Assembly (NCBI GenBank): GCA_037349105.1
Contig: JAYJMM010000097.1
Location: forward strand, 1,922,001-1,986,000
Length of the DNA: 64,000 nucleotides
Source of the DNA: Limnomonas spitsbergensis
Taxonomy: Eukaryota; Chlorophyta; Chlorophyceae; Chlamydomonadales
Direction: 5' to 3'
Of the stretch, positions 7,459 to 59,840 are shown piece by piece. Both the position numbers and the translations under genes were made by a program. The stretch's first letter is position 1. Every line of letters begins with the position of its first letter. A model generated the notes under the pieces. The model did not search any database, was not told where the DNA came from, and was given only the letters and a program-made list of their open reading frames with translations.

Positions 7459-7460
7459 CC

Positions 7461-9236
7461 TTGGAGCAGGCGGAGACGCACTTGCAGCTGCAGAAGCAGA
7501 TGATCATGCAGCTGGCTGGGGGGACCAGGTTCACCAAGATCCCAACCAGCCAAGGCAACGTGCCGGTGCTGGATATGTCCCAGCCTGGGGCGGTCGCAGC
7601 TAGGCAGTACTGCCAAGCCTGCAGCTCCTGGGGCTCGCACAACCGGCTGGCATTATCCGACGAGCCGCCAGCACTGGCTGTGGTAGCCGGGGAGATTGCA
7701 GGGTCCTGCCAGTCCCCCTCAGCCATGGCCCTGCTGGTGCGGTCCCTGATCAGCATGTGGAACGACAAGCCAGCCAGCATGGAGCCGCTGGTGGTCGCCA
7801 TAAAGTCAGCGCCTCAGGGTGACAGGGCCACCCAGGAGGTCGTGAGGATCAAGAGGGCGTGGTCACCCCTGGAGGTAGGACCGCCGTGCGAGGTGTCCTT
7901 GCTTACCCTGTGGATCAGGGTGGTGAAGAAGGAGGTGGGCAAACCAACCTCAGACGAGAGAGCAGCGGTCTCCAACCTCAAACTGGGAGACGGGACCACC
8001 CTTGACCCTGGGGTCAAGCCGGAAGAGACAGTGGAGGCGTTTGCCCACATGGTCCTGTCCACGGCAGAGCTGCTGCAGATCTCCAGGGATGCCGTTGACC
8101 ACTTCGGCAGACGGCACTCGGTGGCGCACATGTTCTATGAAGGGCTGCATGGGGCCGTCAGGGCCAAACTGAGCGCGTTTGTCATCACTGTGCCAGACTA
8201 CCTGAGCATGACGGATGAGGAGCAGGTTGCAGTGCTGACGCGGCAGGTGCTACTGTGGGAAAGGTTCGCCTTGGAAATGGGGAACCTGACCGCCATGGAC
8301 TCCAGGCAAGGGCCAGGAGAGCAACAGCAGAGGAGCCAGGGGGAGATGCAGGCGGGGCGTGGCAGACGGGATAGGCCAGGCCAGTGGAAGGCCAGGTTGA
8401 GGCCGGACGGGCTAGGAGTCGCCACCGGCCAGAACGGCACCCAGCCCGCCAGGCAGGAAGGAAGAGCCAAGGGAGTCACATGGGCGGACCAAGCAGCCGC
8501 TCGGACCACCATCACCCATGGAACTGAGGGCGCTCCCAAAGCGTGCTTCCAATGTGGCAGCCTGGAGCACCTGGCAAGGGACTGCAGGACGCCCAGGGCT
8601 AGGGATGAGCGCCGCCCAGCACCCCTGGCTACGGACATCGCTACGGGACAGGCCAGGCCGCGGCAGCAGCCGTACTCGCTGCCGCCGAAGCCGCAAGGAC
8701 AGGCAGCAGGCATACCCTATGACAAGAACCAAGGCAACAGGCAGTTCCCAAGACAGCAGCAGGGACAGGCGGGGCATGGCCAGCAAGCAGCCCACATGTC
8801 CCACCTCACCGGCCCTTCAGAACTAGCGGAACCGGAAGGATGGCACCAGACGGTTGCCGAGATGCTGAGCGAGTCGGTAGCATTGATGACGCAGGTTGGG
8901 TTGGCATCCAGGCCAGAGGCATATAAGCAGGCGGCGCACAACGCCAGACCCTGGTTCTTCAGACCCTCGTCTAGCAGCGAGGAGGAACCCGAACCACTCG
9001 TTATTGAACACACTTCCAGGAAGGGAGCCAAGAGACTTGCCTTACGCCGGCTGGTTGAAGGGTTGTGTGATGTCCGCACGCAGGTGCTGTATCTAAACGA
9101 GAGGATCACGGCTTTGGCACACACTACCATGCCTATGGGATCAACTGAAGACCGCGGTGAGCCCAGTAGGAGTGGTCGGGCGCGCACGGTGACCATCACT
9201 CCCCCAGGCTGCAGTATTTCAAGAATGACAGTCTGA
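7461..9236 (+). CDS. Retrotransposon Gag-like protein with CCHC zinc knuckle, copy A
   Basis: An open frame of 591 codons as counted from a TTG at 7461; the true frame extends a little upstream without an ATG. The N-terminal half is a helical, capsid-like region (conserved TLWIRVVK, KPEETVEAFAH, DYLSMTDEEQ blocks, shared with copies B and C). A canonical nucleocapsid knuckle C-x2-C-x4-H-x4-C (CFQCGSLEHLARDC, bases 8544-8585) follows an Arg/Gln-rich segment. The C-terminal third is Gln/Gly-rich, followed by a region that would lead into the protease. The role, packaging of retrotransposon RNA, is inferred from the knuckle, the position before a retropepsin-like frame and the multicopy state. 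It differs from copy B by scattered substitutions and a short change at the 3' end (around 9230) that creates its TGA. Confidence 0.75.
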   Translation: MEQAETHLQLQKQMIMQLAGGTRFTKIPTSQGNVPVLDMSQPGAVAARQYCQACSSWGSHNRLALSDEPPALAVVAGEIAGSCQSPSAMALLVRSLISMWNDKPASMEPLVVAIKSAPQGDRATQEVVRIKRAWSPLEVGPPCEVSLLTLWIRVVKKEVGKPTSDERAAVSNLKLGDGTTLDPGVKPEETVEAFAHMVLSTAELLQISRDAVDHFGRRHSVAHMFYEGLHGAVRAKLSAFVITVPDYLSMTDEEQVAVLTRQVLLWERFALEMGNLTAMDSRQGPGEQQQRSQGEMQAGRGRRDRPGQWKARLRPDGLGVATGQNGTQPARQEGRAKGVTWADQAAARTTITHGTEGAPKACFQCGSLEHLARDCRTPRARDERRPAPLATDIATGQARPRQQPYSLPPKPQGQAAGIPYDKNQGNRQFPRQQQGQAGHGQQAAHMSHLTGPSELAEPEGWHQTVAEMLSESVALMTQVGLASRPEAYKQAAHNARPWFFRPSSSSEEEPEPLVIEHTSRKGAKRLALRRLVEGLCDVRTQVLYLNERITALAHTTMPMGSTEDRGEPSRSGRARTVTITPPGCSISRMTV

Positions 9237-9634: not shown

Positions 9635-9714
9635 CACTGCCGTTGGTGCTAGCCTCCCCGGCAGGGGGCTACCAGGCGGCAGCAACGTCATGGGCCGGCC
9701 TGGGTGACCCCCAC

Positions 9715-10099
9715 CTGCTCCACGTCATCCCATCCTGCTTCTCAACAGCAAAAGCACTTCACCTGCTCCCCACTCCTCCCATCTTGCTTCTGAACAGCAA
9801 AAGCACTCCACCTACCCCTCCGTCCTCCCATCTTGCTTCTCAACAGCAAAAACACTCCACCTGCTCCCCGTCCTCCCATCCTGCTTCTCAACAGCCAACG
9901 CACTCCACCTGCTTCCCCGTCCTCCCATCCTGCTTCTCAACAGCCAAAGCACTCCACATGCTCCCCACTCCTCCCATCCTGCTTCTCAACAGCCAAAGCA
10001 CTCCACATGCTCCCCCGTCCTCCTATCATGCTTCTCAACAGCAAAAGCACTCCACCTACCCCCCGTCCTCCCATCCTGCTTCTCAACAGCAAAAGCACT
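9715..10099 (+). repeat. 49-bp minisatellite at the 3' side of copy A
   Basis: About eight imperfect units of a C-rich sequence (core CATCCTGCTTCTCAACAGC then AAAGCACTCCAC) follow the protease-like frame. The same array occurs in copy B at 40965-41436 with one or two more units, so it belongs to the element and varies in copy number. It stops abruptly at the start of the 221-bp repeat. Confidence 0.85.
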
Positions 10100-30734: not shown

Positions 30735-31114
30735 CAGGAAAGGAGGGAGGATGAGCTGTCAATTTCCGAGGCAAGAGAGTACACCGGCGGAACGCAGCCT
30801 AGCAGGCCCAGCATTAACCAGCCCGGAAGACAGGCGGGATCAGGAGGAGAAATGGGACACCAAGAGCCAGCTCAATAGCGCTCAGAAGGGGGCAGCCGCC
30901 CCAGAAGTGTGGCAAGCGAGATGCCGTCCGGGGGCGGGCAGTCCCAGAGAAGTGCAGACCGCAGAGACAGCCGGGGCCAGCGAAGCCGGAGCCCAGCCAA
31001 GGACGGAGGCGGCGGGTCAGGCTCTGACCCCAGCAAGTCGGACTCTGAAGACACAGAGGGGCGCGGCCCGGGCTCCAGCAGGGAATCCATGAGGCAAAAA
31101 GGGAGAGGATAGCC

Positions 31115-32908
31115 TTGGAGCAGGCGGAGACGCACTTGCAGCTGCAGAAGCAGATGATCATGCAGCTGGCTGGGGGGACCAGGTTCACCAAGATCCCAAC
31201 CAGCCAAGGCAACGTGCCTGTGCTGGATATGTCCCAGCCTGGGGCGGTCGCAGCTAGGCAGTACTGCCAAGCCTGCAGCTCCTGGGGCTCGCACAACCGG
31301 CTGGCATTATCCGACGAGCCGCCAGCACTGGCTGTGGTAGCCGGGGAGATTGCAGGGTCCTGCCAGTCCCCCTCAGCCATGGCCCTGCTGGTGCGGTCCC
31401 TGATCAGCATGTGGAACGACAAGCCAGCCAGCATGGAGCCGCTGGTGGTCGCCATAAGGTCAGCGCCTCAGGGTGACAGGGCCACCCAGGAGGTCGTGAG
31501 GATCAAGAGGGCGTGGTCACCCCTGGAGGTAGGACCGCCGTGCGAGGTGTCCTTGCTTACCCTGTGGATCAGGGTGGTGAAGAAGGAGGTGGGCAAACCA
31601 ACCTCAGACGAGAGAGCAGCGGTCTCCAACCTCAAACTGGGAGTCGGGACCACCCTTGACCCTGGGGTCAAGCCGGAAGAGACAGTGGAGGCGTTTGCCC
31701 ACATGGTCCTGTCCACGGCAGAGCTGCTGCAGATCTCCAGGGATGCCGTTGACCACTTCGGCAGACGGCACTCGGTGGCGCACATGTTCCATGAAGGGCT
31801 GCATGGGGCCGTCAGGGCCAAACTGAGCGCGTTTGTCATCACTGTGCCAGACTACCTGAGCATGACGGATGAGGAGCAGGTTTCAGTGCTGACGCGGCAG
31901 GTGCTACTGTGGGAAAGGTTCGCCTTGGAAATGGGGGACCTGACCGCCATGGACTCCAGGCAAGGGCCAGGAGAGCAACAGCAGAGGAGCCAGGGGGAGA
32001 TGCAGGCGGGGCGTGGCAGACGGGATAGGCCAGGCCAGTGGAAGACCAGGTTGAGGCCGGACGGGCTAGGAGTCGCCACCGGCCAGAACGGCACCCAGCC
32101 CGCCAGGCAGGAAGGAAGAGCCAAGGGAGTCACATGGGCGGACCAAGCAGCCGCTCTGACCACCATCACCCATGGAACTGAGGGCGCTCCCAAAGCGTGC
32201 TTCCAATGTGGCAGCCTGGAGCACCTGGCAAGGGACTGCAGGACGCCCAGGGCCAGGGATGAGCGCCGCCCAGCACCCCTGGCTACGGACATCGCTACGG
32301 GACAGGCCAGGCCGCGGCAGCAGCCGTACCCGCTGCCGCCGAAGCCGCAAGGACAGGCAGCAGGCATACCCTATGACAAGAACCAAGGCAACAGGCAGTT
32401 CCCAAGACAGCAGCAGGGACAGGCGGGGCATGGCCAGCAAGCAGCCCACATGTCCCACCTCACCGGCCCTTCAGAACTAGCGGAACCGGAAGGATGGCAC
32501 CAGACGGTTGCCGAGATGCTGAGCGAGTCGGTAGCATTGATGACGCAGGTTGGGTTGGCATCCAGGCCAGAGGCATACAAGCAGGCGGCGCACAACGCCA
32601 GACCCCGGTTCTTCAGACCCTCGTCTAGCAGCGAGGAGGAACCCGAACCACTCGTTATTGAACACACTTCCAGGAAGGGAGCCAAGAGACTTGCCTTACG
32701 CCGGCTGGCTGAAGGGTTGTGTGATGTCCGCACGCAGGTGCTGTATCTAAACGAGAGGATCACGGCTTTGGCACACACTACCATGCCTATGGGACCAACT
32801 GAAGACCGCGGTGAGCCCAGTAGGAGTGGTCGGGCGCGCACGGTGACCATCACTCCCCCAGGCTGCAGTATGTCAAGAATGACAGGAGTAACCACTCGCA
32901 ATGTGTAG
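31115..32908 (+). CDS. Retrotransposon Gag-like protein with CCHC zinc knuckle, copy B
   Basis: A frame of 597 codons, counterpart of 7461-9236 and differing by a small number of substitutions. It holds the same capsid-like blocks and the knuckle C-x2-C-x4-H-x4-C at 32198-32239. The shared phase break before it (around 31085-31095) is identical in both copies, so the break predates their separation or one copy derives from the other. It ends at TAG six bases before the protease-like frame. Confidence 0.75.
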   Translation: MEQAETHLQLQKQMIMQLAGGTRFTKIPTSQGNVPVLDMSQPGAVAARQYCQACSSWGSHNRLALSDEPPALAVVAGEIAGSCQSPSAMALLVRSLISMWNDKPASMEPLVVAIRSAPQGDRATQEVVRIKRAWSPLEVGPPCEVSLLTLWIRVVKKEVGKPTSDERAAVSNLKLGVGTTLDPGVKPEETVEAFAHMVLSTAELLQISRDAVDHFGRRHSVAHMFHEGLHGAVRAKLSAFVITVPDYLSMTDEEQVSVLTRQVLLWERFALEMGDLTAMDSRQGPGEQQQRSQGEMQAGRGRRDRPGQWKTRLRPDGLGVATGQNGTQPARQEGRAKGVTWADQAAALTTITHGTEGAPKACFQCGSLEHLARDCRTPRARDERRPAPLATDIATGQARPRQQPYPLPPKPQGQAAGIPYDKNQGNRQFPRQQQGQAGHGQQAAHMSHLTGPSELAEPEGWHQTVAEMLSESVALMTQVGLASRPEAYKQAAHNARPRFFRPSSSSEEEPEPLVIEHTSRKGAKRLALRRLAEGLCDVRTQVLYLNERITALAHTTMPMGPTEDRGEPSRSGRARTVTITPPGCSMSRMTGVTTRNV

Positions 32909-40715: not shown

Positions 40716-41440
40716 GTAGTAATAGAAAAGGCGGTGGTCAGGGTGGTCAAGACGCCTCCAGACGCATACAAGCAACTGTTCGGAAAGCTTGAGTACCTTC
40801 AGTACGGGGGGTCCTGGAGGCCGCAGGTCGGCTATCCTTGTTCCCCCATGGAGGGACTGACGGGCTGACACTGCCGTTGGTGCTAGCCTCCCCGGCAGGG
40901 GGCTACCAGGCGGCAGCAACGTCATGGGCCGGCCTGGATGACCCCCACCTGCTCCACGTCATCCCATCCTGCTTCTCAACAGCAAAAGCACTCCACCTGC
41001 TCCCCACTCCTCCCATCTTGCTTCTGAACAGCAAAAGCACTCCACCTACCCCTCCGTCCTCCCATCTTGCCTGCTTCTCAACAGCAAAAACACTCCACCT
41101 GCTCCCCGTCCTCCCATCCTGCTTCTCAACAGCCAACGCACTCCACCTGCTTCCCCGTCCTCCCATCCTGCTTCTCAACAGCCAAAGCACTCCACATGCT
41201 CCCCACTCCTCCCATCCTGCTTCTCAACAGCCAAAGCACTACACATGCTCCCCACTCCTCCCATCCTGCTTCTCAACAGCCAAAGCACTCCACATGCTCC
41301 CCCGTCCTCCTATCATGCTTCTCAACAGCAAAAGCACTCCACCTACCCCCCGTCCTCCCATCCTGCTTCTCAACAGCAAAAGCACTCCACATGCTCCCCG
41401 TCCTCCCATCCTGCTTCTCAATAGCAAAAGCACTCCATGG
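40716..41440 (+). mobile_element. Retroelement copy B, right part (protease end and minisatellite)
   Basis: Resumes the protease-like frame in the middle of its last third (VVRVVKTPPDAY) and continues with about nine to ten units of the 49-bp minisatellite (40965-41436). It ends abruptly at about 41440 against a reverse-transcriptase gene fragment that runs in the opposite direction. Confidence 0.8.
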
Positions 41441-42985
41441 CAGGTTCGTCAGCACATCGCTGATCATTGACCTGGCCCTGGCCCTGCTATTGAAAGCCTT
41501 TTCTACCGAGCTTGCTGGCTGTGCTTGCTCATCATCCTCATCCATTGCGCTGGAGATAGCTTGGCCGCATGGGGCCACTATACATGCTGCCTCAGCGGCC
41601 CGCAGCCTTTGCACCCCCCTTCTGCCCTCCTGTGCTAGGCGCACCACCTGGTCCGAGTGCCACTGGTCCACCCTGCTCAGCCCAGTGAGCATAGCCACTT
41701 GCATTCCGTTGGCGGCCCCGCCCGGTACCTTTGGCTTAGTGGCGGCTTCATCCAGTACATCCAGCCGTGCCCCTGTGCGGTCGTCGGTGGACTGGAGTGG
41801 CGACCTAGACGGGATATCTGCATTCTGGTGGCATGCCCCTGACCGGTGGACAATGGTAAAGTCGAGCTCCTGGAGCATGAGCGCCCATCTGGCGTGCTGC
41901 CCTACCAGGGCCTAGTGGTTATCCATGAGGTAAGTGAGGGGCTCGTGGTCCGTGATCAGGTGCACCGCCTTGCACCCAAACAGCATATGGCGGTATGTAC
42001 GGGCGGCATACACTGCGGCTAGCATTTCCCCCTAGAACGACGAGTAGTTCTTCTCGCTTTTGTTTAGGGAGCGCGAGGTGCATGCTACCGTGTATTCCCT
42101 CCCGCTGTCGTCACACTCCCCCAGCACCGCTCCTATTCCCTGTTTAGAGAAGTCGGTGTACAGCAGGAACGGCCGCGGTGGCCCTTGGCCACCCGGCCCT
42201 GTCTCGCTGTAGTCCGGCCAGCGCAAGACCCTGCCGCCCTCGCACATTTCAGTTTTGATCAGCTGAAAGGCCTGGGACTGCTCAGGGCCCCACACAAAGG
42301 GCACCCCCTTGACCAGCAGGGCATTGATGCATGCCCCCTTCTTAGAGAAATCCGGGATGTAACACCGGTAGAAGTTCAAGAACCCCATAACCTCCTGGAT
42401 GTTTTTGACCGATGCGGGCTCAGGCAGTGCCATGACAGTTGCTATCTTGGTTGCGTGCGGCATGAGCCCTTGGGCCGACACATTGTGGCCTAGGTACTCA
42501 ACCGTTGCGCACCCGAACAGGGACTTGTCTGGATGCGCTCTCAGCCCCACCTTATGAAGCATGTCCAACATGAGCTCCACATGCTTGATGTGCTGTGCAG
42601 GCGTGTCGCTGTACACCAGCAGGTCGTCAATGAATGCAGCACAAAAGGAGCTCAGGCCTGCCCTGGCTATCTCTTCTTCCATCATACGCTGGAAGAAGGG
42701 AGGCCCGTTGCGCAGCCCAAAGTTCAGCTTTGTGTACATCCACAGTTCAGGGCCCGGGATGTAACACCGGTATAAGTTCAAGAACCCCATAACCTCCTGG
42801 ATGTTTTTGACCGATGCGGGCTCAGGCAGTGCCATAACCGCTGCTATCTTGGCTGCGTGCGGCGTGAGCCCTTGGGCCAGAGGAGGAGTCAGCCGCCAAG
42901 GGGCAGACAGCCAGGAAGGACAAGGGGGGATAGGAAACCCCGTGAACGGCTGGACGTGCTGAGCACTTGACGAGCCCCACGCCAT
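41440..42985 (-). pseudogene. Ty3/gypsy reverse transcriptase-RNase H, broken and rearranged
   Basis: Minus-strand text holds an RT fragment from the fingers/palm (LNFGLRNGPPFFQRMM, then FIDDLLVYSD, where FIDD takes the place of the usual Y/F-x-DD), the thumb (VEYLGHNVSAQGL, VMGFLNFYRCYIPDFSKK) and RNase H (FLLYTDFSKQGIGAVLGE, then HARWALMLQELDFTIVHRSGACHQNAD). Two TAG codons interrupt it, at about 42033 (after NYSSF) and about 41912. A 123-bp segment of the thumb region (42354-42476) is duplicated at 42753-42879, upstream of the palm, which shuffles domain order. The finger and N-terminal palm regions and the integrase are missing. It lies head-to-head with copy B and so is not the pol of that copy in its present arrangement. 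Confidence 0.8.
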
Positions 42986-43760
42986 ACCTGGAAGAACGAG
43001 CCGGTGCCGGCCCTATGGGAACACCCCCCGGGGCGGCATGACCGGCACAAGTAGACAGCAGGCAGTGGGCCGACGGCCAGCAGGGCATAGCCTAGTACGC
43101 AATCAAGTTTGTTTCCGCAATAAACCATAGCAGCAGGAGCAGCGAGCCAATGGGGTACATAAGGATGACGGCTACGGCGCTAATTAAAAAGTAGTAGACA
43201 TGTATGACATTTGCCTCTTGAGTAGAGATTACCGCAGGACCAACCAGCGGATGGACTAGATTAGGATAAGCCACCGCTGCTACTGCACACATCTCATGTG
43301 GCTTAGGGGCCAGGTGTCAACGGCGCAGTGGGGCGAGAGCAGCGGGCGGTCTATTTTTCGGTCTGAATTTCTGGCTGAATTTCTTTGGGCATAAACCCTT
43401 ACCAGCGTTAGGAATCGGAGGATTGGATTCTGATGGCTTCCTGAATTTACCCAGGCATGACTCTAACGGCGGGTTAACAGATTCTTTTGTGCCCTGATCA
43501 GGCCAGGGAGCGATCGGGAATAGCCCAGGGGCCGTTATAGGGTGTGTGCCGAGCGTGAGCAGAACCTAGGGTTAGCCACGAGATTAAGTGAATTTCTTTT
43601 CTTCAGACCGTCTGGTTTGCAAGCAGATGTTAGGGAGCTTCAAGTTTCTGTATGTACATATCTTTACCAACTTCTCTTTCACGTACCACCCCTAGTCCGG
43701 CTCCCCACGCATGCCCGACGGATGGGCTTAACGTTGGGAGCGGAGGGCGAGTAAAGTAGT
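42986..43760. other. Gene-free stretch
   Basis: Between the RT fragment and an LTR-like block. Short frames only, no motif. Base composition is close to neighbouring DNA. Confidence 0.4.
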
Positions 43761-44632: not shown

Positions 44633-44809
44633 TCATCCCTGCTGGTTGACGGAGAGGCAGGGGAACCAGTACCAACGCTCCCCTCCAGGGGCCTGATCAT
44701 CCACGAGGGCCAGACCTTGACTCAGCATGGCCCCCAGCGCAGCATCCGTGCGAGCAGCCGGCCAGCCAGGCTGGAGCATGATCTCCCGCCTCGTCACGTA
44801 CCCACGCGC
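44633..44809 (-). CDS. SNF8: SNF8 exon 6 (terminal exon)
   Basis: Fifty-eight codons plus TGA, after the acceptor TGTAACAG. The text [20 protein letters not shown] and the [10 protein letters not shown] then RWYWFPC blocks match the second winged helix of VPS22, which in characterised complexes contacts VPS25. Intron 5 is 341 bp. Confidence 0.9.
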   Translation of the reverse strand, partial: ARGYVTRREIMLQPGWPAARTDAALGAMLSQGLALVDDQAPGGERWYWFPCLSVNQQG

Positions 44810-47800
44810 CTGTTACAAACGTGGACCAGGTTCAAACTGTTTTGTTTTGTATTGGATGGATGATAGTTTACATGGGGCAGGTGGACTGCGTCTCAACATG
44901 TGTGCTGAGTCACAGTCATACTGCTGGACATCATTAATTTCAGGGTGCTTCAGCTGCACTGACGGTAAACTACAACCCGGCCTACAGCCGGCATGGCTTG
45001 GTGCAGCTAGCCCTGCTGTTAGGGTCAATGACCATCCATTTACGGTCCCTATCGGCCTAGTGGTGGCCCCATGGCAAACCCCTAAAGATGGTCAGATACA
45101 AACAAAGATACAAAGTATTGATGGATGGCCTCTATCAACCTCCAGCTCACCTGAGCCAACTCCAAGATTTTGTTGCTGTCCATGTTAAGCTCTCCGGGTA
45201 CTGAACGCACGTACTGCTGCTTCCCGATGCAAACAATCTCAAAGTGGCCGCTGCCCAACACCTTGATCTTCTTGATTGCGCGGACCTTTGGGGGCAGGTG
45301 CATGGCTTCAGTTTCCGAGGAGAAAGGGTGTGATGGCAACGCAGGATCCATCAAGGTAATGCATGTGAACTGAACCGTTTTTGCCGCATCAACCAAATAC
45401 CAAGCATTAGCGAGCCACCTTGCCGCACCATCACTTCTGGACCATTTGCATGCCAGGAAATCAAGCGTGCACAACATGCAGCTCGCCACCCCGCAAAAAC
45501 AGTCGGACTACACAGGGCCCGGTGCTGCATGGCGCATGGCACTGTGTGCTGAGCACACAGCACAGCACACAGTGCCATGCGCCATGCAGCACTTGTCCCT
45601 GTACAATCCGCAACCAGAGAGAATTTGCATTCCGAGCCAACAACGTACCACATCGTCTTCACTGACAGGATCTGCCTGCTTGCCGCGCCGCCGGTTCACA
45701 AACTTGAGCAACGCTGGCAGCTCCATGAGGCCTCCACTGGTTTCCCTTGAGGCCCAGCACGCCTCCACAATCTGCACGCCAAGCTCGTAGTAGAAGTCGC
45801 CGATGCCTAGGGTTTTCGCCCACATACCCTAAAGGGCTCACCAGCATGTCAGGACAGTCACTAAACTTAAACATAAGTAAAAAACGAGAGTTAAAAATGA
45901 GAGTTAAACATGAGCGAAATTCCGTGGGTCCCGTTCAATAGCATGCACTTGCGACAGCATAGTTTGAAATCAAACTGCAGCCACACCAGAATTTTGAAGG
46001 CCACCAGAGGCTGCATGCTATGGTAGCTGCAAGGTCCCCCCCGGGCCTTGCATAGATGTGTAGCAAGGTGAGCACAGCCCACCCGTAAGGATGGCTGTCA
46101 GATAAAGGGCCCCCTGCTTCCGGGAGGAAACGACTGCACCCAAGGACTGCACCCAAGGACTGCACCCAAGGACTGCACCCAAGGACTGCACCCAAGGACT
46201 GCACCCAAGGACTGCACCCAAGGACTGCACCCAAGGACTGCACCCAAGGACTGCACCCAAGGACTGCACCCAAGGACTGCACCCAAGGACTGCACCCAAG
46301 GACTGCACCCAAGGACTGCACCCAAGGACTGCACCCAAGGACTGCACCCAAGGACTGCACCCAAGGACTGCACCCAAGGACTGCACCCAAGGACTGCACC
46401 CAAGGACTGCACCCAAGGACTGCACCCAAGGACTGCACCCAAGGACTGCACCCAAGGACTGCACCCAAGGACTGCACCCAAGGACTGCACCCAAGGACTG
46501 CACCCAAGGACTGCACCCAAGGACTGCACCCAAGGACTGCACCCAAGGACTGCACCCAAGGACTGCACCCAAGGACTGCACCCAAGGACTGCACCCAAGG
46601 ACTGCACCCAAGGACTGCACCCAAGGACTGCACCCAAGGACTGCACCCAAGGACTGCACCCAAGGACTGCACCCAAGGACTGCACCCAAGGACTGCACCC
46701 AAGGACTGCACCCAAGGACTGCACCCAAGGACTGCACCCAAGGACTGCACCCAAGGACTGCACCCAAGGACTGCACCCAAGGACTGCACCCAAGGACTGC
46801 ACCCAAGGACTGCACCCAAGGACTGCACCCAAGGACTGCACCCAAGGACTGCACCCAACGACTGCACCCAAGGACTGCACCCAAGGACTGCACCCAAGGA
46901 CTGCACCCAAGGACTGCACCCAAGGACTGCACCCAAGGACTGCACCCAAGGACTGCACCCAAGGACTGCACCCAAGGACTGCACCCAAGGACTGCACCCA
47001 AGGACTGCACCCAAGGACTGCACCCAAGGACTGCACCCAACGATTGCACCCAAGGACTGCACCCAAGGACTGCACCCAAGGACTGCACCCAAGGACTGCA
47101 CCCAAGGACTGCACCCAAGGACTGCACCCAAGGACTGCACCCAAGGACTGCACCCAAGGACTGCACCCAAGGACTGCACCCAAGGACTGCACCCAAGGAC
47201 TGCACCCAAGGACTGCACCCAAGGACTGCACCCAAGGACTGCACCCAAGGACTGCACCCAACGACTGCACCCAAGGACTGCACCCAAGGACTGCACCCAA
47301 GGACTGCACCCAAGGACTGCACCCAAGGACTGCACCCAAGGACTGCACCCAAGGACTGCACCCAAGGACTGCACCCAAGGACTGCACCCAAGGACTGCAC
47401 CCAAGGACTGCACCCAAGGACTGCACCCAAGGACTGCACCCAAGGACTGCACCCAAGGACTGCACCCAAGGACTGCACCCAAGGACTGCACCCAAGGACT
47501 GCACCCAAGGACTGCACCCAAGGACTGCACCCAAGGACTGCACCCAAGGACTGCACCCAAGGACTGCACCCAAGGACTGCACCCAAGGACTGCACCCAAG
47601 GACTGCACCCAAGGACTGCACCCAAGGACTGCACCCAAGGACTGCACCCAAGGACTGCACCCAAGGACTGCACCCAAGGACTGCACCCAAGGACTGCACC
47701 CAAGGACTGCACCCAAGGACTGCACCCAAGGACTGCACCCAAGGACTGCACCCAAGGACTGCACCCAAGGACTGCACCCAAGGACTGCACCCAAGGACTG

Positions 47801-50800
47801 CACCCAAGGACTGCACCCAAGGACTGCACCCAAGGACTGCACCCAAGGACTGCACCCAAGGACTGCACCCAAGGACTGCACCCAAGGACTGCACCCAAGG
47901 ACTGCACCCAAGGACTGCACCCAAGGACTGCACCCAAGGACTGCACCCAAGGACTGCACCCAAGGACTGCACCCAACGACTGCACCCAAGGACTGCACCC
48001 AAGGACTGCACCCAAGGACTGCACCCAAGGACTGCACCCAAGGACTGCACCCAAGGACTGCACCCAAGGACTGCACCCAAGGACTGCACCCAAGGACTGC
48101 ACCCAAGGACTGCACCCAAGGACTGCACCCAAGGACTGCACCCAAGGACTGCACCCAAGGACTGCACCCAAGGACTGCACCCAAGGACTGCACCCAAGGA
48201 CTGCACCCAAGGACTGCACCCAAGGACTGCACCCAAGGACTGCACCCAAGGACTGCACCCAAGGACTGCACCCAAGGACTGCACCCAAGGACTGCACCCA
48301 AGGACTGCACCCAAGGACTGCACCCAAGGACTGCACCCAAGGACTGCACCCAAGGACTGCACCCAAGGACTGCACCCAAGGACTGCACCCAAGGACTGCA
48401 CCCAAGGACTGCACCCAAGGACTGCACCCAAGGACTGCACCCAAGGACTGCACCCAAGGACTGCACCCAAGGACTGCACCCAAGGACTGCACCCAAGGAC
48501 TGCACCCAAGGACTGCACCCAAGGACTGCACCCAAGGACTGCACCCAAGGACTGCACCCAACGACTGCACCCAAGGACTGCACCCAAGGACTGCACCCAA
48601 GGACTGCACCCAAGGACTGCACCCAAGGACTGCACCCAAGGACTGCACCCAAGGACTGCCCCCAAGGACTGCACCCAAGGACTGCACCCAAGGACTGCAC
48701 CCAACGACTGCACCCAAGGACTGCACCCAAGGACTGCACCCAACGACTGCACCCAAGGACTGCACCCAAGGACTGCACCCAAGGACTGCACCCAACGACT
48801 GCACCCAAGGACTGCACCCAAGGACTGCACCCAAGGACTGCACCCAAGGACTGCACCCAAGGACTGCACCCAAGGACTGCACCCAAGGACTGCACCCAAG
48901 GACTGCACCCAAGGACTGCACCCAAGGACTGCACCCAAGGACTGCACCCAAGGACTGCACCCAACGACTGCACCCAAGGACTGCACCCAAGGACTGCACC
49001 CAAGGACTGCACCCAAGGACTGCACCCAAGGACTGCACCCAAGGACTGCACCCAAGGACTGCACCCAAGGACTGCACCCAAGGACTGCACCCAAGGACTG
49101 CACCCAAGGACTGCACCCAAGGACTGCACCCAAGGACTGCACCCAAGGACTGCACCCAAGGACTGCACCCAAGGACTGCACCCAAGGACTGCACCCAAGG
49201 ACTGCACCCAAGGACTGCACCCAAGGACTGCACCCAAGGACTGCACCCAAGGACTGCACCCAAGGACTGCACCCAAGGACTGCACCCAAGGACTGCACCC
49301 AAGGACTGCACCCAAGGACTGCACCCAAGGACTGCACCCAAGGACTGCACCCAAGGACTGCACCCAAGGACTGCACCCAAGGACTGCACCCAAGGACTGC
49401 ACCCAAGGACTGCACCCAAGGACTGCACCCAAGGACTGCACCCAAGGACTGCACCCAAGGACTGCACCCAAGGACTGCACCCAACGACTGCACCCAAGGA
49501 CTGCACCCAAGGACTGCACCCAAGGACTGCACCCAAGGACTGCACCCAAGGACTGCACCCAAGGACTGCACCCAAGGACTGCACCCAAGGACTGCACCCA
49601 AGGACTGCACCCAAGGACTGCACCCAAGGACTGCACCCAAGGACTGCACCCAACGACTGCACCCAAGGACTGCACCCAAGGACTGCACCCAAGGACTGCA
49701 CCCAAGGACTGCACCCAAGGACTGCACCCAAGGACTGCACCCAAGGACTGCACCCAAGGACTGCCCCCAAGGACTGCACCCAAGGACTGCACCCAAGGAC
49801 TGCACCCAACGACTGCACCCAAGGACTGCACCCAAGGACTGCACCCAACGACTGCACCCAAGGACTGCACCCAAGGACTGCACCCAAGGACTGCACCCAA
49901 CGACTGCACCCAAGGACTGCACCCAAGGACTGCACCCAAGGACTGCACCCAAGGACTGCACCCAAGGACTGCACCCAAGGACTGCACCCAAGGACTGCAC
50001 CCAAGGACTGCACCCAAGGACTGCACCCAAGGACTGCACCCAAGGACTGCACCCAAGGACTGCACCCAAGGACTGCACCCAACGACTGCACCCAACGACT
50101 GCACCCAAGGACTGCACCCAAGGACTGCACCCAAGGACTGCACCCAAGGACTGCACCCAAGGACTGCACCCAAGGACTGCACCCAAGGACTGCACCCAAG
50201 GACTGCACCCAAGGACTGCACCCAAGGACTGCACCCAAGGACTGCACCCAAGGACTGCACCCAAGGACTGCACCCAAGGACTGCACCCAAGGACTGCACC
50301 CAAGGACTGCACCCAAGGACTGCACCCAAGGACTGCACCCAAGGACTGCACCCAAGGACTGCACCCAAGGACTGCACCCAAGGACTGCACCCAAGGACTG
50401 CACCCAAGGACTGCACCCAAGGACTGCACCCAAGGACTGCACCCAAGGACTGCACCCAAGGACTGCACCCAAGGACTGCACCCAAGGACTGCACCCAAGG
50501 ACTGCACCCAAGGACTGCACCCAAGGACTGCACCCAAGGACTGCACCCAAGGACTGCACCCAAGGACTGCACCCAAGGACTGCACCCAAGGACTGCACCC
50601 AAGGACTGCACCCAAGGACTGCACCCAAGGACTGCACCCAAGGACTGCACCCAAGGACTGCACCCAAGGACTGCACCCAAGGACTGCACCCAAGGACTGC
50701 ACCCAAGGACTGCACCCAAGGACTGCACCCAAGGACTGCACCCAAGGACTGCACCCAAGGACTGCACCCAAGGACTGCACCCAAGGACTGCACCCAAGGA

Positions 50801-53800
50801 CTGCACCCAAGGACCATCCGGCCACAGAGTGGTACCCAAGGACTGCACCCAAGGACTGCACCCAACGACTGCACCCAAGGACTGCACCCAAGGACTGCAC
50901 CCAAGGACTGCACCCAAGGACTGCACCCAACGACTGCACCCAAGGACTGCACCCAAGGACTGCACCCAAGGACTGCACCCAAGGACTGCACCCAAGGACT
51001 GCACCCAAGGACTGCACCCAAGGACTGCACCCAAGGACTGCACCCAAGGACTGCACCCAACGACTGCACCCAAGGACTGCACCCAAGGACTGCACCCAAG
51101 GACTGCACCCAAGGACTGCACCCAAGGACTGCACCCAAGGACTGCACCCAAGGACTGCACCCAAGGACTGCACCCAACGACTGCACCCAAGGACTGCACC
51201 CAAGGACCATCCGGCCACAGAGTGGTACCCAAGGACTGCACCCAAGGACTGCACCCAACGACTGCACCCAAGGACTGCACCCAAGGACTGCACCCAAGGA
51301 CTGCACCCAAGGACTGCACCCAAGGACCATCCGGCCACAGAGTGGTACCCAAGGACTGCACCCAAGGACTGCACCCAACGACTGCACCCAAGGACTGCAC
51401 CCAAGGACTGCACCCAAGGACTGCACCCAAGGACTGCACCCAACGACTGCACCCAAGGACTGCACCCAAGGACTGCACCCAAGGACTGCACCCAAGGACT
51501 GCACCCAAGGACTGCACCCAAGGACTGCACCCAAGGACTGCACCCAAGGACTGCACCCAAGGACTGCACCCAAGGACTGCACCCAACGACTGCACCCAAG
51601 GACTGCACCCAAGGACTGCACCCAACGACTGCACCCAAGGACTGCACCCAAGGACTGCACCCAACGACTGCACCCAACGACTGCACCCAAGGACCATCCG
51701 GCCACAGAGTGGTACCCAAGGACTGCACCCAAGGACTGCACCCAAGGACTGCACCCAAGGACTGCACCCAAGGACTGCACCCAAGGACTGCACCCAAGGA
51801 CCATCCGGCCACAGAGTGGTACCCAAGGACTGCACCCAAGGACTGCACCCAACGACTGCACCCAAGGACTGCACCCAAGGACTGCACCCAAGGACTGCAC
51901 CCAAGGACTGCACCCAAGGACCATCCGGCCACAGAGTGGTACCCAAGGACTGCACCCAAGGACTGCACCCAACGACTGCACCCAAGGACTGCACCCAAGG
52001 ACTGCACCCAAGGACTGCACCCAACGACTGCACCCAAGGACTGCACCCAAGGACTGCACCCAAGGACTGCACCCAACGACTGCACCCAAGGACTGCACCC
52101 AAGGACTGCACCCAACGACTGCACCCAAGGACTGCACCCAAGGACTGCACCCAACGACTGCACCCAACGACTGCACCCAAGGACCATCCGGCCACAGAGT
52201 GGTACCCAAGGACTGCACCCAAGGACTGCACCCAACGACTGCACCCAAGGACTGCACCCAAGGACTGCACCCAAGGACTGCACCCAAGGACTGCACCCAA
52301 GGACCATCCGGCCACAGAGTGGTACCGAAGGACTGCACCCAAGGACTGCACCCAAGGACTGCACCCAACGACTGCACCCAAGGACTGCACCCAAGGACTG
52401 CACCCAAGGACTGCACCCAAGGACTGCACCCAAGGACTGCACCCAAGGACTGCACCCAAGGACTGCACCCAAGGACTGCACCCAAGGACTGCACCCAAGG
52501 ACTGCACCCAACGACTGCACCCAAGGACTGCACCCAAGGACCATCCGGCCACAGAGTGGTACCCAAGGACTGCACCCAAGGACTGCACCCAACGACTGCA
52601 CCCAAGGACTGCACCCAAGGACTGCACCCAAGGACTGCACCCAAGGACTGCACCCAAGGACTGCACCCAAGGACTGCACCCAAGGACTGCACCCAAGGAC
52701 TGCACCCAAGGACTGCACCCAAGGACTGCACCCAAGGACTGCACCCAAGGACCATCCGGCCACAGAGTGGTACCCAAGGACTGCACCCAAGGACTGCACC
52801 CAACGACTGCACCCAAGGACTGCACCCAAGGACTGCACCCAAGGACTGCACCCAAGGACTGCACCCAACGACTGCACCCAAGGACTGCACCCAAGGACTG
52901 CACCCAAGGACTGCACCCAAGGACTGCACCCAAGGACTGCACCCAAGGACTGCACCCAAGGACTGCACCCAAGGACTGCACCCAAGGACTGCACCCAACG
53001 ACTGCACCCAAGGACTGCACCCAAGGACTGCACCCAAGGACTGCACCCAAGGACTGCACCCAAGGACTGCACCCAAGGACTGCACCCAAGGACTGCACCC
53101 AAGGACTGCACCCAAGGACTGCACCCAAGGACTGCACCCAAGGACCATCCGGCCACAGAGTGGTACCCAAGGACTGCACCCAAGGACTGCACCCAAGGAC
53201 TGCACCCAAGGACTGCACCCAACGACTGCACCCAAGGACTGCACCCAAGGACTGCACCCAAGGACTGCACCCAAGGACTGCACCCAAGGACTGCACCCAA
53301 GGACTGCACCCAAGGACTGCACCCAAGGACTGCACCCAAGGACTGCACCCAAGGACTGCACCCAACGACTGCACCCAAGGACTGCACCCAAGGACCATCC
53401 GGCCACAGAGTGGTACCCAAGGACTGCACCCAAGGACTGCACCCAACGACTGCACCCAAGGACTGCACCCAAGGACTGCACCCAAGGACTGCACCCAAGG
53501 ACTGCACCCAAGGACTGCACCCAAGGACTGCACCCAAGGACTGCACCCAAGGACTGCACCCAAGGACTGCACCCAAGGACTGCACCCAAGGACTGCACCC
53601 AAGGACCATCCGGCCACAGAGTGGTACCCAAGGACTGCACCCAAGGACTGCACCCAACGACTGCACCCAAGGACTGCACCCAAGGACTGCACCCAAGGAC
53701 TGCACCCAAGGACTGCACCCAACGACTGCACCCAAGGACTGCACCCAAGGACTGCACCCAAGGACTGCACCCAAGGACTGCACCCAAGGACTGCACCCAA

Positions 53801-56800
53801 GGACTGCACCCAAGGACTGCACCCAAGGACTGCACCCAAGGACTGCACCCAACGACTGCACCCAAGGACTGCACCCAAGGACTGCACCCAAGGACTGCAC
53901 CCAAGGACTGCACCCAAGGACTGCACCCAAGGACTGCACCCAAGGACTGCACCCAAGGACTGCACCCAACGACTGCACCCAAGGACTGCACCCAAGGACC
54001 ATCCGGCCACAGAGTGGTACCCAAGGACTGCACCCAAGGACTGCACCCAACGACTGCACCCAAGGACTGCACCCAAGGACTGCACCCAAGGACTGCACCC
54101 AAGGACTGCACCCAAGGACCATCCGGCCACAGAGTGGTACCCAAGGACTGCACCCAAGGACTGCACCCAACGACTGCACCCAAGGACTGCACCCAAGGAC
54201 TGCACCCAAGGACTGCACCCAAGGACTGCACCCAACAACTGCACCCAAGGACTGCACCCAAGGACTGCACCCAAGGACTGCACCCAAGGACTGCACCCAA
54301 GGACTGCACCCAAGGACTGCACCCAAGGACTGCACCCAAGGACTGCACCCAAGGACTGCACCCAAGGACTGCACCCAACGACTGCACCCAAGGACTGCAC
54401 CCAAGGACTGCACCCAAGGACTGCACCCAAGGACTGCACCCAACGACTGCACCCAACGACTGCACCCAAGGACCATCCGGCCACAGAGTGGTACCCAAGG
54501 ACTGCACCCAAGGACTGCACCCAAGGACTGCACCCAAGGACTGCACCCAAGGACTGCACCCAACGACTGCACCCAAGGACTGCACCCAAGGACCATCCGG
54601 CCACAGAGTGGTACCCAAGGACTGCACCCAAGGACTGCACCCAACGACTGCACCCAAGGACTGCACCCAAGGACTGCACCCAAGGACTGCACCCAAGGAC
54701 TGCACCCAAGGACCATCCGGCCACAGAGTGGTACCCAAGGACTGCACCCAAGGACTGCACCCAACGACTGCACCCAAGGACTGCACCCAAGGACTGCACC
54801 CAAGGACTGCACCCAAGGACTGCACCCAACGACTGCACCCAAGGACTGCACCCAAGGACTGCACCCAAGGACTGCACCCAAGGACTGCACCCAAGGACTG
54901 CACCCAAGGACTGCACCCAAGGACTGCACCCAAGGACTGCACCCAAGGACTGCACCCAACGACTGCACCCAAGGACTGCACCCAAGGACTGCACCCAACG
55001 ACTGCACCCAAGGACTGCACCCAAGGACTGCACCCAACGACTGCACCCAACGACTGCACCCAAGGACCATCCGGCCACAGAGTGGTACCCAAGGACTGCA
55101 CCCAAGGACTGCACCCAACGACTGCACCCAAGGACTGCACCCAAGGACTGCACCCAAGGACTGCACCCAAGTACTGCACCCAAGGACCATCCGGCCACAG
55201 AGTGGTACCGAAGGACTGCACCCAAGGACTGCACCCAACGACTGCACCCAAGGACTGCACCCAAGGACTGCACCCAAGGACTGCACCCAAGGACTGCACC
55301 CAAAGACTGCACCCAAGGACTGCACCCAACGACTGCACCCAAGGACTGCACCCAAGGACTGCACCCAAGGACTGCACCCAAGGACTGCACCCAAGGACTG
55401 CACCCAAGGACTGCACCCAAGGACTGCACCCAAGGACTGCACCCAAGGACTGCACCCAAGGACTGCACCCAAGGACTGCACCCAAGGACTGCACCCAAGG
55501 ACTGCACCCAAGGACTGCACCCAAGGACTGCACCCAACGACTGCACCCAAGGACTGCACCCAAGGACTGCACCCAAGGACTGCACCCAAGGACTGCACCC
55601 AAGGACCATCCGGCCACAGAGTGGTACCCAAGGACTGCACCCAAGGACTGCACCCAACGACTGCACCCAAGGACTGCACCCAAGGACTGCACCCAAGGAC
55701 TGCACCCAAGGACTGCACCCAACGACTGCACCCAACGACTGCACCCAAGGACTGCACCCAAGGACTGCACCCAAGGACTGCACCCAAGGACTGCACCCAA
55801 GGACTGCACCCAAGGACTGCACCCAAGGACTGCACCCAAGGACTGCACCCAAGGACTGCACCCAAGGACTGCACCCAAGGACTGCACCCAAGGACTGCAC
55901 CCAAGGACTGCACCCAAGGACTGCACCCAAGGACTGCACCCAAGGACTGCACCCAAGGACTGCACCCAAGGACTGCACCCAAGGACTGCACCCAAGGACT
56001 GCACCCAAGGACTGCACCCAACGACTGCACCCAAGGACTGCACCCAAGGACTGCACCCAAGGACTGCACCCAAGGACTGCACCCAAGGACTGCACCCAAG
56101 GACTGCACCCAAGGACTGCACCCAAGGACTGCACCCAAGGACTGCACCCAAGGACTGCACCCAAGGACTGCACCCAAGGACTGCACCCAAGGACTGCACC
56201 CAAGGACTGCACCCAAGGACTGCACCCAAGGACTGCACCCAAGGACTGCACCCAAGGACTGCACCCAAGGACTGCACCCAAGGACTGCACCCAAGGACTG
56301 CACCCAAGGACTGCACCCAAGGACTGCACCCAAGGACTGCACCCAAGGACTGCACCCAAGGACTGCACCCAAGGACTGCACCCAAGGACTGCACCCAAGG
56401 ACTGCACCCAAGGACTGCACCCAAGGACTGCACCCAAGGACTGCACCCAAGGACTGCACCCAAGGACTGCACCCAAGGACTGCACCCAAGGACTGCACCC
56501 AACGACTGCACCCAAGGACTGCACCCAAGGACTGCACCCAAGGACTGCACCCAAGGACTGCACCCAAGGACTGCACCCAAGGACTGCACCCAAGGACTGC
56601 ACCCAAGGACTGCACCCAAGGACTGCACCCAAGGACTGCACCCAAGGACTGCACCCAAGGACTGCACCCAAGGACTGCACCCAAGGACTGCACCCAAGGA
56701 CTGCACCCAAGGACTGCACCCAAGGACTGCACCCAAGGACTGCACCCAAGGACTGCACCCAAGGACTGCACCCAAGGACTGCACCCAAGGACTGCACCCA

Positions 56801-59800
56801 AGGACTGCACCCAAGGACTGCACCCAAGGACTGCACCCAAGGACTGCACCCAAGGACTGCACCCAAGGACTGCACCCAAGGACTGCACCCAAGGACTGCA
56901 CCCAAGGACTGCACCCAAGGACTGCACCCAAGGACTGCACCCAAGGACTGCACCCAAGGACTGCACCCAAGGACTGCACCCAAGGACTGCACCCAAGGAC
57001 TGCACCCAAGGACTGCACCCAAGGACTGCACCCAAGGACTGCACCCAAGGACTGCACCCAAGGACTGCACCCAAGGACTGCACCCAAGGACTGCACCCAA
57101 GGACTGCACCCAAGGACTGCACCCAAGGACTGCACCCAAGGACTGCACCCAAGGACTGCACCCAAGGACTGCACCCAAGGACTGCACCCAAGGACTGCAC
57201 CCAAGGACTGCACCCAAGGACTGCACCCAAGGACTGCACCCAAGGACTGCACCCAAGGACTGCACCCAAGGACTGCACCCAAGGACTGCACCCAAGGACT
57301 GCACCCAACGACTGCACCCAAGGACTGCACCCAAGGACTGCACCCAAGGACTGCACCCAAGGACTGCACCCAAGGACTGCACCCAAGGACTGCACCCAAG
57401 GACTGCACCCAAGGACTGCACCCAAGGACTGCACCCAAGGACTGCACCCAAGGACTGCACCCAACGACTGCACCCAAGGACTGCACCCAAGGACTGCACC
57501 CAAGGACTGCACCCAAGGACTGCACCCAAGGACTGCACCCAAGGACTGCACCCAAGGACTGCACCCAAGGACTGCACCCAAGGACTGCACCCAAGGACTG
57601 CACCCAAGGACTGCACCCAAGGACTGCACCCAAGGACTGCACCCAAGGACTGCACCCAAGGACTGCACCCAAGGACTGCACCCAAGGACTGCACCCAAGG
57701 ACTGCACCCAAGGACTGCACCCAAGGACTGCACCCAAGGACTGCACCCAAGGACTGCACCCAAGGACTGCACCCAAGGACTGCACCCAAGGACTGCACCC
57801 AAGGACTGCACCCAAGGACTGCACCCAAGGACTGCACCCAAGGACTGCACCCAAGGACTGCACCCAAGGACTGCACCCAAGGACTGCACCCAAGGACTGC
57901 ACCCAAGGACTGCACCCAAGGACTGCACCCAAGGACTGCACCCAAGGACTGCACCCAAGGACTGCACCCAAGGACTGCACCCAAGGACTGCACCCAAGGA
58001 CTGCACCCAAGGACTGCACCCAAGGACTGCACCCAAGGACTGCACCCAAGGACTGCACCCAAGGACTGCACCCAAGGACTGCACCCAAGGACTGCACCCA
58101 AGGACTGCACCCAAGGACTGCACCCAAGGACTGCACCCAAGGACTGCACCCAAGGACTGCACCCAAGGACTGCACCCAAGGACTGCACCCAAGGACTGCA
58201 CCCAAGGACTGCACCCAAGGACTGCACCCAAGGACTGCACCCAAGGACTGCACCCAAGGACTGCACCCAAGGACTGCACCCAAGGACTGCACCCAAGGAC
58301 TGCACCCAAGGACTGCACCCAAGGACTGCACCCAAGGACTGCACCCAAGGACTGCACCCAAGGACTGCACCCAAGGACTGCACCCAAGGACTGCACCCAA
58401 GGACTGCACCCAAGGACTGCACCCAAGGACTGCACCCAAGGACTGCACCCAAGGACTGCACCCAAGGACTGCACCCAAGGACTGCACCCAAGGACTGCAC
58501 CCAAGGACTGCACCCAAGGACTGCACCCAAGGACTGCACCCAAGGACTGCACCCAAGGACTGCACCCAAGGACTGCACCCAAGGACTGCACCCAAGGACT
58601 GCACCCAAGGACTGCACCCAAGGACTGCACCCAAGGACTGCACCCAAGGACTGCACCCAAGGACTGCACCCAAGGACTGCACCCAAGGACTGCACCCAAG
58701 GACCATCCGGCCACAGAGTGGTACCCAAGCGCACCTTATTTGAAGCCAGCGGGTCCACACCAATGTTGGCGCACATTTGATGGAAGCGAGCTCTGAACTC
58801 CGGGTCCTTCCGGATCTCAGATCTATGCTTCATGGCAAACTCCTGAGGACAACAAAGAGATTTGTGAAGAAAACCAAGGGGCATATATTCGAACCATTTT
58901 GCTTGAATTGATAGGAATCAAATAAAACTACCGAAGAAGAAGGACTAGCGGGGACAGGAGACACGATTAGGAGACAGGAAGACGTAGAGAGGCAACAGGA
59001 GACAGGAAGACAAGTCAAACAAATAAGCCAAAAGCATGGAGAGAGGAAACCAAAGTCAAGAGAAACCCAATAATACACAACTGAAAGAAATAATCCCAGG
59101 ATACCGGTACAAGAGCACACTTGCCCTTTTGAGGGTGCGGCAGACATCACATTTTAACAAAACTGCATGCAGAGGGTCTATCTTTCTTGAGCTATACTGC
59201 TTAAGTCATGGGCAAGGAGGAGTTTCAACACTGCTCATGTCGCTCATGGCAAGGTTTGATGATCCAATGCACGTCACAGCAAGTGAGCCTTGCAAGGTTT
59301 CAAGATATGAGGCCCTTGTTGAGGGAATGTGGGCCATAATCTCACCTCGAGCTTGGTCTTGAACAGCACCATCTGGTCCTTCATAGCTTGAAGGTTGCTC
59401 GACCTGACCTCATCTCCCACATTCTTGTACGTCGCCTGAGGAGGCAGCACAGGCAAGCCATGGAACGGTGATAAGCATGCCCTGCCGAAAACTCTTTAAT
59501 GCTCACTGAGGGTGATGTAAGGTTAAATGCTGGGCCTTTCAACTCAAGTCAGATGCAGCATCAGAAGTCGATAACAACAGTGCATGGCACAATTTCCCAT
59601 AATGGTGCCAATGCGGGACATGGGCACAAGGCCATGCAATAAAAACACCAAACCGGAAGGCACACGTATGTGTCAAAGGGCATCTTTCGCATCGAGGCCA
59701 ATATCAAGAGAGGAGATAGTAAATCCTCCTACACAAAACAGCATTGAAATCCCATGCATTGTTTAAAGGGAATGGGGCCTTGTCCATACCTTAGCCTGGG

Positions 59801-59840
59801 CAGCATGGTGCAGGCCACTGATGCCGACGCCTCGTCGCAT
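44633..59840 (-). CDS. SNF8: SNF8 / VPS22, ESCRT-II subunit; six exons, intact
   Basis: The six exons join in phase to encode 246 residues, close to the ~250 of plant and animal VPS22. Exons: 59840-59790, 59435-59346, 58842-58735, 45828-45649, 45285-45151, 44809-44633; all introns are GT-AG. Recognised blocks: start [43 protein letters not shown] then [45 protein letters not shown] then GELNMD; ending [10 protein letters not shown]. In characterised ESCRT-II, VPS22 pairs with VPS36 and two VPS25 copies on endosomes, linking ESCRT-I to ESCRT-III in multivesicular-body sorting. An N-terminal helical region (exons 1-3) precedes two winged-helix domains (exons 4-5 and 6). Every intron is ordinary except the third, 12,906 bp, which is almost entirely a 13-bp tandem repeat. 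No frameshift or stop was found in the exons. Confidence 0.93.
45151..45285 (-). CDS. SNF8: SNF8 exon 5
   Basis: Forty-five codons, [13 protein letters not shown] to NKILELAQ, after CCCAAAG and before GTGAGC. End of the first winged-helix domain and linker. Intron 4 is 363 bp. Confidence 0.93.
45649..45828 (-). CDS. SNF8: SNF8 exon 4, downstream of the giant intron
   Basis: Sixty codons beginning [17 protein letters not shown], after the acceptor CCCTTTAG, and ending DPVSEDDV before GTACGT. This is the start of the first winged-helix domain and carries the most conserved block of the family. Confidence 0.93.
46131..58728 (-). repeat. 12.6-kb array of a 13-bp unit filling SNF8 intron 3
   Basis: The transcribed-strand unit is TTGGGTGCAGTCC (+ strand GGACTGCACCCAA), repeated about 950 times at very high identity. 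The main variant changes one base (GGACTG to CGACTG on the + strand). A 29-bp compound unit (same ends plus 16 extra bases) occurs about 21 times between 50813 and 55640 and once at the exon 3 edge (58700-58728). In the 51-55 kb zone, compound units are often 119-120 bp apart (29 + 7x13), giving a higher-order repeat. Because 13 is not a multiple of three and the unit contains no stop in any frame, all six frames are open for kilobases; those ORFs are not genes. Intron 3 runs from 58734 to 45829. Confidence 0.97.
58735..58842 (-). CDS. SNF8: SNF8 exon 3, upstream of the giant intron
   Basis: Thirty-six codons, from EFAMKH to DPLASNK, between CCTCAG and the donor GTGCGC. The donor is six bases from the first TTGGGT of the repeat array. 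Intron 2 is 503 bp. Confidence 0.93.
59346..59435 (-). CDS. SNF8: SNF8 exon 2
   Basis: Thirty codons ([20 protein letters not shown] onward) between CTCAG and GTGAGA. They form the first amphipathic helix of the N-terminal region. Intron 1 is 354 bp. Confidence 0.92.
59790..59840 (-). CDS. SNF8: SNF8 exon 1 (start codon exon)
   Basis: Seventeen codons from ATG, reading [17 protein letters not shown], followed by the donor GTATGG. The MRR-GVG opening is the conserved N-terminus of VPS22 proteins, which fixes the start. Confidence 0.9.

Follow-up and report, generated by a model that had tools for sequence, protein, structure and literature searches.

A long predicted intron of the SNF8 gene of Limnomonas spitsbergensis occupied by a locus-specific tandem array without recognisable splice signals

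How a conserved gene can tolerate an intron which consists almost wholly of a short tandem repeat is the question raised by the SNF8 (VPS22) gene of the green alga Limnomonas spitsbergensis, the third intron of which is predicted to be 12,906 bp long. The gene lies in a stretch of 64,000 nucleotides, referred to here as the window, which corresponds to bases 1922001-1986000 of contig C97, and the assembly that was searched comprises 260 Mb in 124 contigs. Our interpretation, to which we assign a probability of about 0.7, is that intron 3 is a predicted GT-AG intron, that an array unique in this assembly has likely grown within it beside the 5' splice site (the donor), and that the array is likely removed as in an ordinary intron, since nothing in its repeat unit matches a branch point or a donor that could be used.

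The SNF8 gene and the array in its third intron

SNF8 is encoded on the minus strand by six exons, which specify a complete protein of 246 residues with start and stop codons present and the frame intact. All five introns (44633-59840) are in phase 0 and have GT-AG ends, and the exons join in frame, as was stated in an earlier note on this DNA, which also gave the limits and the length of intron 3 correctly. The parts of the gene, in window coordinates and with a slash marking the exon-intron boundary, are as follows.

59790..59840, minus strand: exon 1 with the start codon; in-frame join, donor AAG/GTATGG
59346..59435, minus strand: exon 2; in-frame GT-AG join
58735..58842, minus strand: exon 3, ending AAG/GTGCGC; in-frame join, PF04157 positions 39-74
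45829..58734, minus strand: predicted intron 3, 12,906 bp; GT-AG ends, phase-0 join of exons 3 and 4
45649..45828, minus strand: exon 4; in-frame join, PF04157 positions 83-137
45151..45285, minus strand: exon 5; in-frame GT-AG join
44633..44809, minus strand: exon 6 with the stop codon; in-frame GT-AG join

The other four introns measure 354, 503, 363 and 341 bp, rather than the 340-710 bp given for them earlier. An inverted repeat with 51-nt arms, which are 86% complementary and 5 nt apart, is located in intron 4 (45504-45610).

On sequence comparison, the encoded protein is the SNF8/VPS22 subunit of the endosomal sorting complex required for transport II (ESCRT-II) rather than VPS36. The EAP30 domain (PF04157 in Pfam) extends over residues 5-226, nearly the full length (E 9.4e-56), and the best structural match, the SNF8 chain 2zme_A, which we take to be the human protein, aligns with residues 2-241 (E 6.6e-71), compared with an E value of only 3.5e-4 for a VPS36 chain. 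The two closest proteins, which cover 99% of the query, show 79% and 76% identity, and matches from Sanguina, Dunaliella, Volvox, Pleodorina and Chlamydomonas come next at 61-65% identity; the two closest proteins support the predicted join of exons 3 and 4, though by homology only. The earlier description of a conserved ESCRT-II gene is upheld by these matches, and a second intact SNF8, which that note named as a refuting finding, was not found in the assembly, where all of the SNF8 protein matches (5/5) are the gene's own exons. A third PF04157 match, on contig C19, was considered as a second copy and rejected, as it belongs to VPS36, two chains of which match its 38 residues (E 3.7e-8 and 4.4e-8).

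Four features make up the interior of intron 3.

46132..58729, minus strand: tandem array in which 920 units are 13 bp long (CTTGGGTGCAGTC or a variant of it) and 22 are 29 bp long (Tandem Repeats Finder, TRF, and unit parse)
58701..58729, minus strand: 29-mer next to the donor (+6 to +34), which recurs in the array as 19 more identical copies
50800..55800 (approximate limits), minus strand: middle of the array, dense in 29-mers and variant units, with higher-order block copies
45829..46131, minus strand: unique intron tail of 303 nt with CTGAC (A at -21), GAG at -8 and the acceptor CCCTTTAG

In transcript order the intron thus reads GTGCG, one 29-mer, 941 further units and 303 unique nt. The array accounts for 12,598 bp, or 97.6% of the intron, and its 942 units comprise 841 exact copies of CTTGGGTGCAGTC, 73 of GTTGGGTGCAGTC (first base G), six rarer 13-mers with a single change (five kinds, one occurring twice) and 22 29-mers, two of which carry one base change. 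The figure of about 98% in the earlier note therefore holds for the array, but not for a 13-bp repeat alone, since 22 of the units are of 29 bp; likewise TGCAG, which each unit was said to contain, occurs 917 times in the 942 units (CAG 919 times). TRF gives a period of 13 and a score of 22,981, which is far above chance, and head-to-tail units of this size fit a minisatellite (10-100 bp). The flanks of the array are near-pure, the longest pure runs being of 95, 61, 55, 55 and 54 units, and its middle, about 3-8 kb into the intron, includes blocks of 773 bp and 789 bp that recur exactly, at offsets of 854 and 2792. Not one indel is present across the 942 units and rare substitutions are few in the 12.6 kb, due to which the array looks young, in agreement with the recent expansion that had been proposed.

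Splice signals in the SNF8 and VPS36 arrays

Intron 3 has the GT-AG form, with AAG/GTGCGC at its beginning, CTGAC (A at -21) near its end and CCCTTTAG/G at the acceptor. Within the array there is not even a TNA and hence no YTNAY, which we take to be the branch-point motif, against 12.8 YTNAY per kb over the remainder of the minus strand of the window. The nearest branch-point candidate is the CTGAC in the unique tail, and the sole AG between it and the acceptor is the GAG which ends 8 nt before the latter; all 919 CAGs of the array come before this tail begins, over 300 nt 5' of the acceptor. The earlier expectation that the array presents hundreds of rival 3' splice sites is not supported by this arrangement, as the CAGs precede the likely branch point and the array is without YTNAY, and a spliceosome scanning from CTGAC would meet one rival AG only, viz. 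the GAG at -8. It should be noted that YTNAY is an imperfect guide in SNF8, as none is found in the last 60 nt of introns 4 and 5.

For the donor side, a model was made from 18 donors, of which five are from SNF8, one is from VPS36 and 12 are from a pair of PF00118 paralogues (these 12 placed by eye). G is present at both -1 and +5 in 18/18 of them. Among the GTs of the array, A stands at +5 in 917, and a further 73 carry G at +5 but lack it at -1; because none has G at both positions, the number that reaches the score of the weakest genuine donor (4.0 bits, leave-one-out) is 0/1975, versus 135/2793 in the rest of the minus strand. By these two measures, YTNAY and the donor score, the array is silent on both the acceptor and the donor sides.

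Acceptance of such an intron by the spliceosome would then depend on the order of its parts: the true donor comes ahead of all the decoys, and behind them the unique 303-nt tail would provide a branch point and the acceptor. The silence would be all-or-nothing, in that the near-uniformity of the array would keep a signal-free unit harmless however many copies it reached, and no function of the array would be required. However, it will be incorrect to interpret the silence as a sign of selection, since 54% of permuted 13-mers lack YTNAY, stop codons and G/GTNNG together; it likely explains why the array is tolerated, not that it was selected. Selection for stop-free or signal-free units was considered as a separate explanation and is not needed, these traits being shared by 54-70% of permuted 13-mers.

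A second donor-anchored array is present in this genome, in an intron of VPS36.

C19:1656075-1656717 (L003 2133-2775): VPS36 intron array, 643 bp, the unit of which consists of the exon end and the donor CAG/GTACGT

Nine of its 14 copies carry CAG/GTACGT (the genuine donor included), four have GA in place of GT (GAACGT) and one has C at -1 (CAC/GT). The segment before the array is called a VPS36 exon because, in an alignment of 30 residues, it shares 83% identity with a protein that bears the name ESCRT-II subunit VPS36; the segment gave no match among solved structures, and its PF04157 match is below the Pfam cut-off (E 5e-4, 20.3 versus 26.8 bits). As a natural test of splice-site choice, for which the SNF8 intron had been put forward, the VPS36 array is the better and cleaner of the two. 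With this locus pair, the vague question of how conserved genes tolerate repetitive introns of great length becomes a concrete one within a single genome: more than 900 copies without a recognisable splice signal in SNF8 and nine identical copies of an exon end and donor in VPS36 could together show whether an array inside a gene is limited in its growth by the splice signals that its unit contains.

Proposed growth of the array and other explanations

The array is confined to this locus. The exact three-unit word (39-mer) has 679 matches in the genome and all 679 are in the window; the 29-mer, with up to 3 mismatches allowed, has 22 matches in the assembly, 22/22 of them here; and the one match of the unique intron tail is at this locus. 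No copy of the unit, the 29-mer or the tail is found elsewhere in the assembly, which sets the array apart from introner-like and other dispersed elements. Since the array is local and the intron itself carries the 29-mer at +6 to +34, the simplest account, and on this sequence evidence a likely one, is that the array grew where it now lies, next to the 5' splice site. Sequence next to the donor would have been duplicated at the outset, and slippage, reflected in the long pure runs, together with block duplication, reflected in the higher-order copies of the middle, would have extended it; the near-pure flanks and block-copied middle fit such a combination. A broader suggestion, which we make tentatively and regard as rather doubtful, is that the introns of this alga grow by tandem duplication in place from the 5' splice site and that the splice silence of the founding unit sets the extent of growth: about 900 copies would be within reach of a unit such as that of SNF8, which has no branch point, donor-grade GT or stop, whereas a unit with the donor in it, as in VPS36, would remain at about a dozen and leave the gene to choose among identical donors.

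Several observations weigh against ordinary removal of the array or against its growth from the donor. The junction of exons 3 and 4 is only a predicted one, from frame and homology. The U1 duplex energy of the true donor AAG/GTGCGC is -5.3 kcal/mol, nearly equal to that of the decoys, which is -5.0 kcal/mol for the 917 TGG/GTGCAG decoys and -5.3 kcal/mol for the 20 TGG/GTACCA decoys in the 29-mers (pairing scored over 12 nt for the true donor and 9 nt for the decoys). As U1 pairing hardly separates the donor from the decoys, the silence on this side depends upon the rule of G at -1 and +5 derived from the 18 donors. Further, strong donors are repeated in the VPS36 array, which means that arrays in this genome are not silent as a general rule. 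With regard to origin, the interior of the 29-mer resembles the 13-mer at chance level only (2564/5000 shuffles are equally good), and the unit-like 5-mer GGTGC just before the 29-mer at the donor edge has a p of about 0.11. These comparisons do not demonstrate that donor sequence gave rise to the 13-mer, the likeness of which to the 29-mer is confined to the shared ends. A derivation of the 29-mer from two 13-mers was also tried and rejected, as its good whole-sequence score (reached by 9/5000 shuffles) comes through these ends only.

If the length of the array were a product of the assembly, the real array would be much shorter (or longer) and the block copies in its middle would have been multiplied by the assembler. 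The block copies of 773 and 789 bp are indeed exact, and the length is that given by the assembly. However, the variant units and 29-mers occur in many different spacings and not as one block repeated end to end, and kilobase arrays are common in this assembly (8/126 sampled arrays exceed 1 kb), due to which we consider this explanation unlikely. It is also quite improbable that the array is functional, either through transcript rods that would bring the donor near the tail or through R-loops on a G-rich strand that would slow transcription and tune the output of SNF8. The transcript strand has 39% G and 23% C, and a transcript of 20 units has a predicted fold of -121.8 kcal/mol, with a z of -3.5 relative to dinucleotide shuffles, but 60% of tandem permuted 13-mers (10 units), which provide a better null, fold at least as well, and RNA folding was rejected as a mechanism on this ground; the array, moreover, occurs only here and looks young.

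An open reading frame (ORF) which runs through the array bears on whether it is sometimes translated.

46018..58842, minus strand: frame of exon 3, which continues open for 4,274 codons across the entire array and reaches its stop in the unique tail (ORF scan)

Translation could yield a repeat protein from this frame, or decoy donors could add multiples of 13 residues to SNF8; the array has no stop codon in any frame, and the first TGG/GTGCAG decoy would, by arithmetic, insert 39 nt in frame. Against this, 70% of permuted 13-mers are stop-free too, no GT in the array is donor-grade, and the translated repeat has no close relative, a search with the repeat peptide having given one weak match of 35% identity (the best 7991 candidates scored), so that we regard translation as very improbable. 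The frame could, however, mislead gene finders into predicting a spurious repeat protein some 4,000 residues long. Minisatellites and pieces of retroelements are common in the window, and the array might on this account derive from a mobile element or dispersed satellite, a copy of which inserted into the intron; but with the three-unit word, the 29-mers and the tail restricted to one locus this origin is disfavoured in the present assembly, and we give it hardly any credence.

Comparison with known systems and the genomic setting

Zhao et al. (2013, PMC3887541) describe the tandem repeats of Chlamydomonas and Volvox as densest in introns and as enriched in the vicinity of intron-exon junctions, and median introns of 198-343 bp are given for Chlamydomonas and its kin (PMC8226300). 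The SNF8 array is like the repeats of that survey (PMC3887541) in being intronic and near an exon junction; however, the survey deals genome-wide with units of 1-50 bp, whereas in SNF8 a single array of 12.6 kb constitutes 97.6% of one intron. In the Drosophila Y genes, satellite-filled introns of megabases are reported (Fingerhut et al. 2019, PMC6508621), and these are alike in that introns of a coding gene consist almost entirely of short tandem repeats and have to be transcribed through. The Drosophila introns belong to male-fertility genes and their satellites are common to several loci, whereas the SNF8 intron is of 12.9 kb, in a conserved gene, at a single locus and with a unit found only there, and it does not attain the scale of a gigantic intron. 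Human intronic variable-number tandem repeats and repeat expansions are comparable as locus-specific intronic expansions, from which the SNF8 repeat differs in its sequence and in being without known phenotype. No paper describing this locus was among those listed in the literature search, as judged by titles and abstract openings. The SNF8 array is therefore best viewed as an extreme example of a published habit of algal intronic repeats; what is new is its full anatomy (found only here, free of indels, anchored at the donor and without recognisable splice signals) and the contrasting donor-bearing array in VPS36.

The same habit is seen in the genome at large. In 15 stretches of 10 kb at preset positions, taken from contigs long enough to hold them, so that larger contigs are favoured, tandem repeats make up 44,928 of 150,000 bases (about 30%). 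The 126 arrays in this sample have a median of 130 bp; eight exceed 1 kb, two exceed 3 kb and none exceeds 10 kb, the 10-kb stretches themselves shortening long arrays. Motifs resembling CTAAACCC or CCCTAA, and thus telomere-like, are present in several of the sampled repeat units (e.g. L009, L011 and L017) and in the VPS36 array. The gaps between 31 abutting PF00118 exon matches range from 73 to 2508 bp with a median of 390 (70/72 matches used; pairs more than 12 profile positions apart, some of which span 5-6 kb with missed exons, were excluded). SNF8 intron 3 is about 5x the longest of these 31 gaps and represents an extreme of a tendency seen across the genome.

The PF00118 paralogue pair on contigs C39 and C99 (L022 and L023) has aligned blocks that are mostly 80-92% identical, with introns that are largely without alignment and differ in length; it also shows partial tandem duplications which include an exon edge, and C36/C119 and C84/C114 resemble it by their match ranges. 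Shortly after the window, a 6-kb array with a G-rich unit of 29 bp (L006 3964-9997, C97:1989964-1995997) reaches the end of the fetched stretch. At the beginning of the window, positions 1-2709 hold a 72-bp array of 37.6 copies, open on both strands for more than 900 codons, the plus-strand frame of which gave no Pfam match. The open frames at 7395-9233 and 31049-32905 each contain a zinc knuckle, in both cases at residues 383-398, and are probably two copies of one gag-like element. A segment at 42035-43012 (minus strand) matches reverse transcriptase and RNase H, and the same 49-bp minisatellite unit is found at 9711-10099 and 40945-41437, 31 kb apart.

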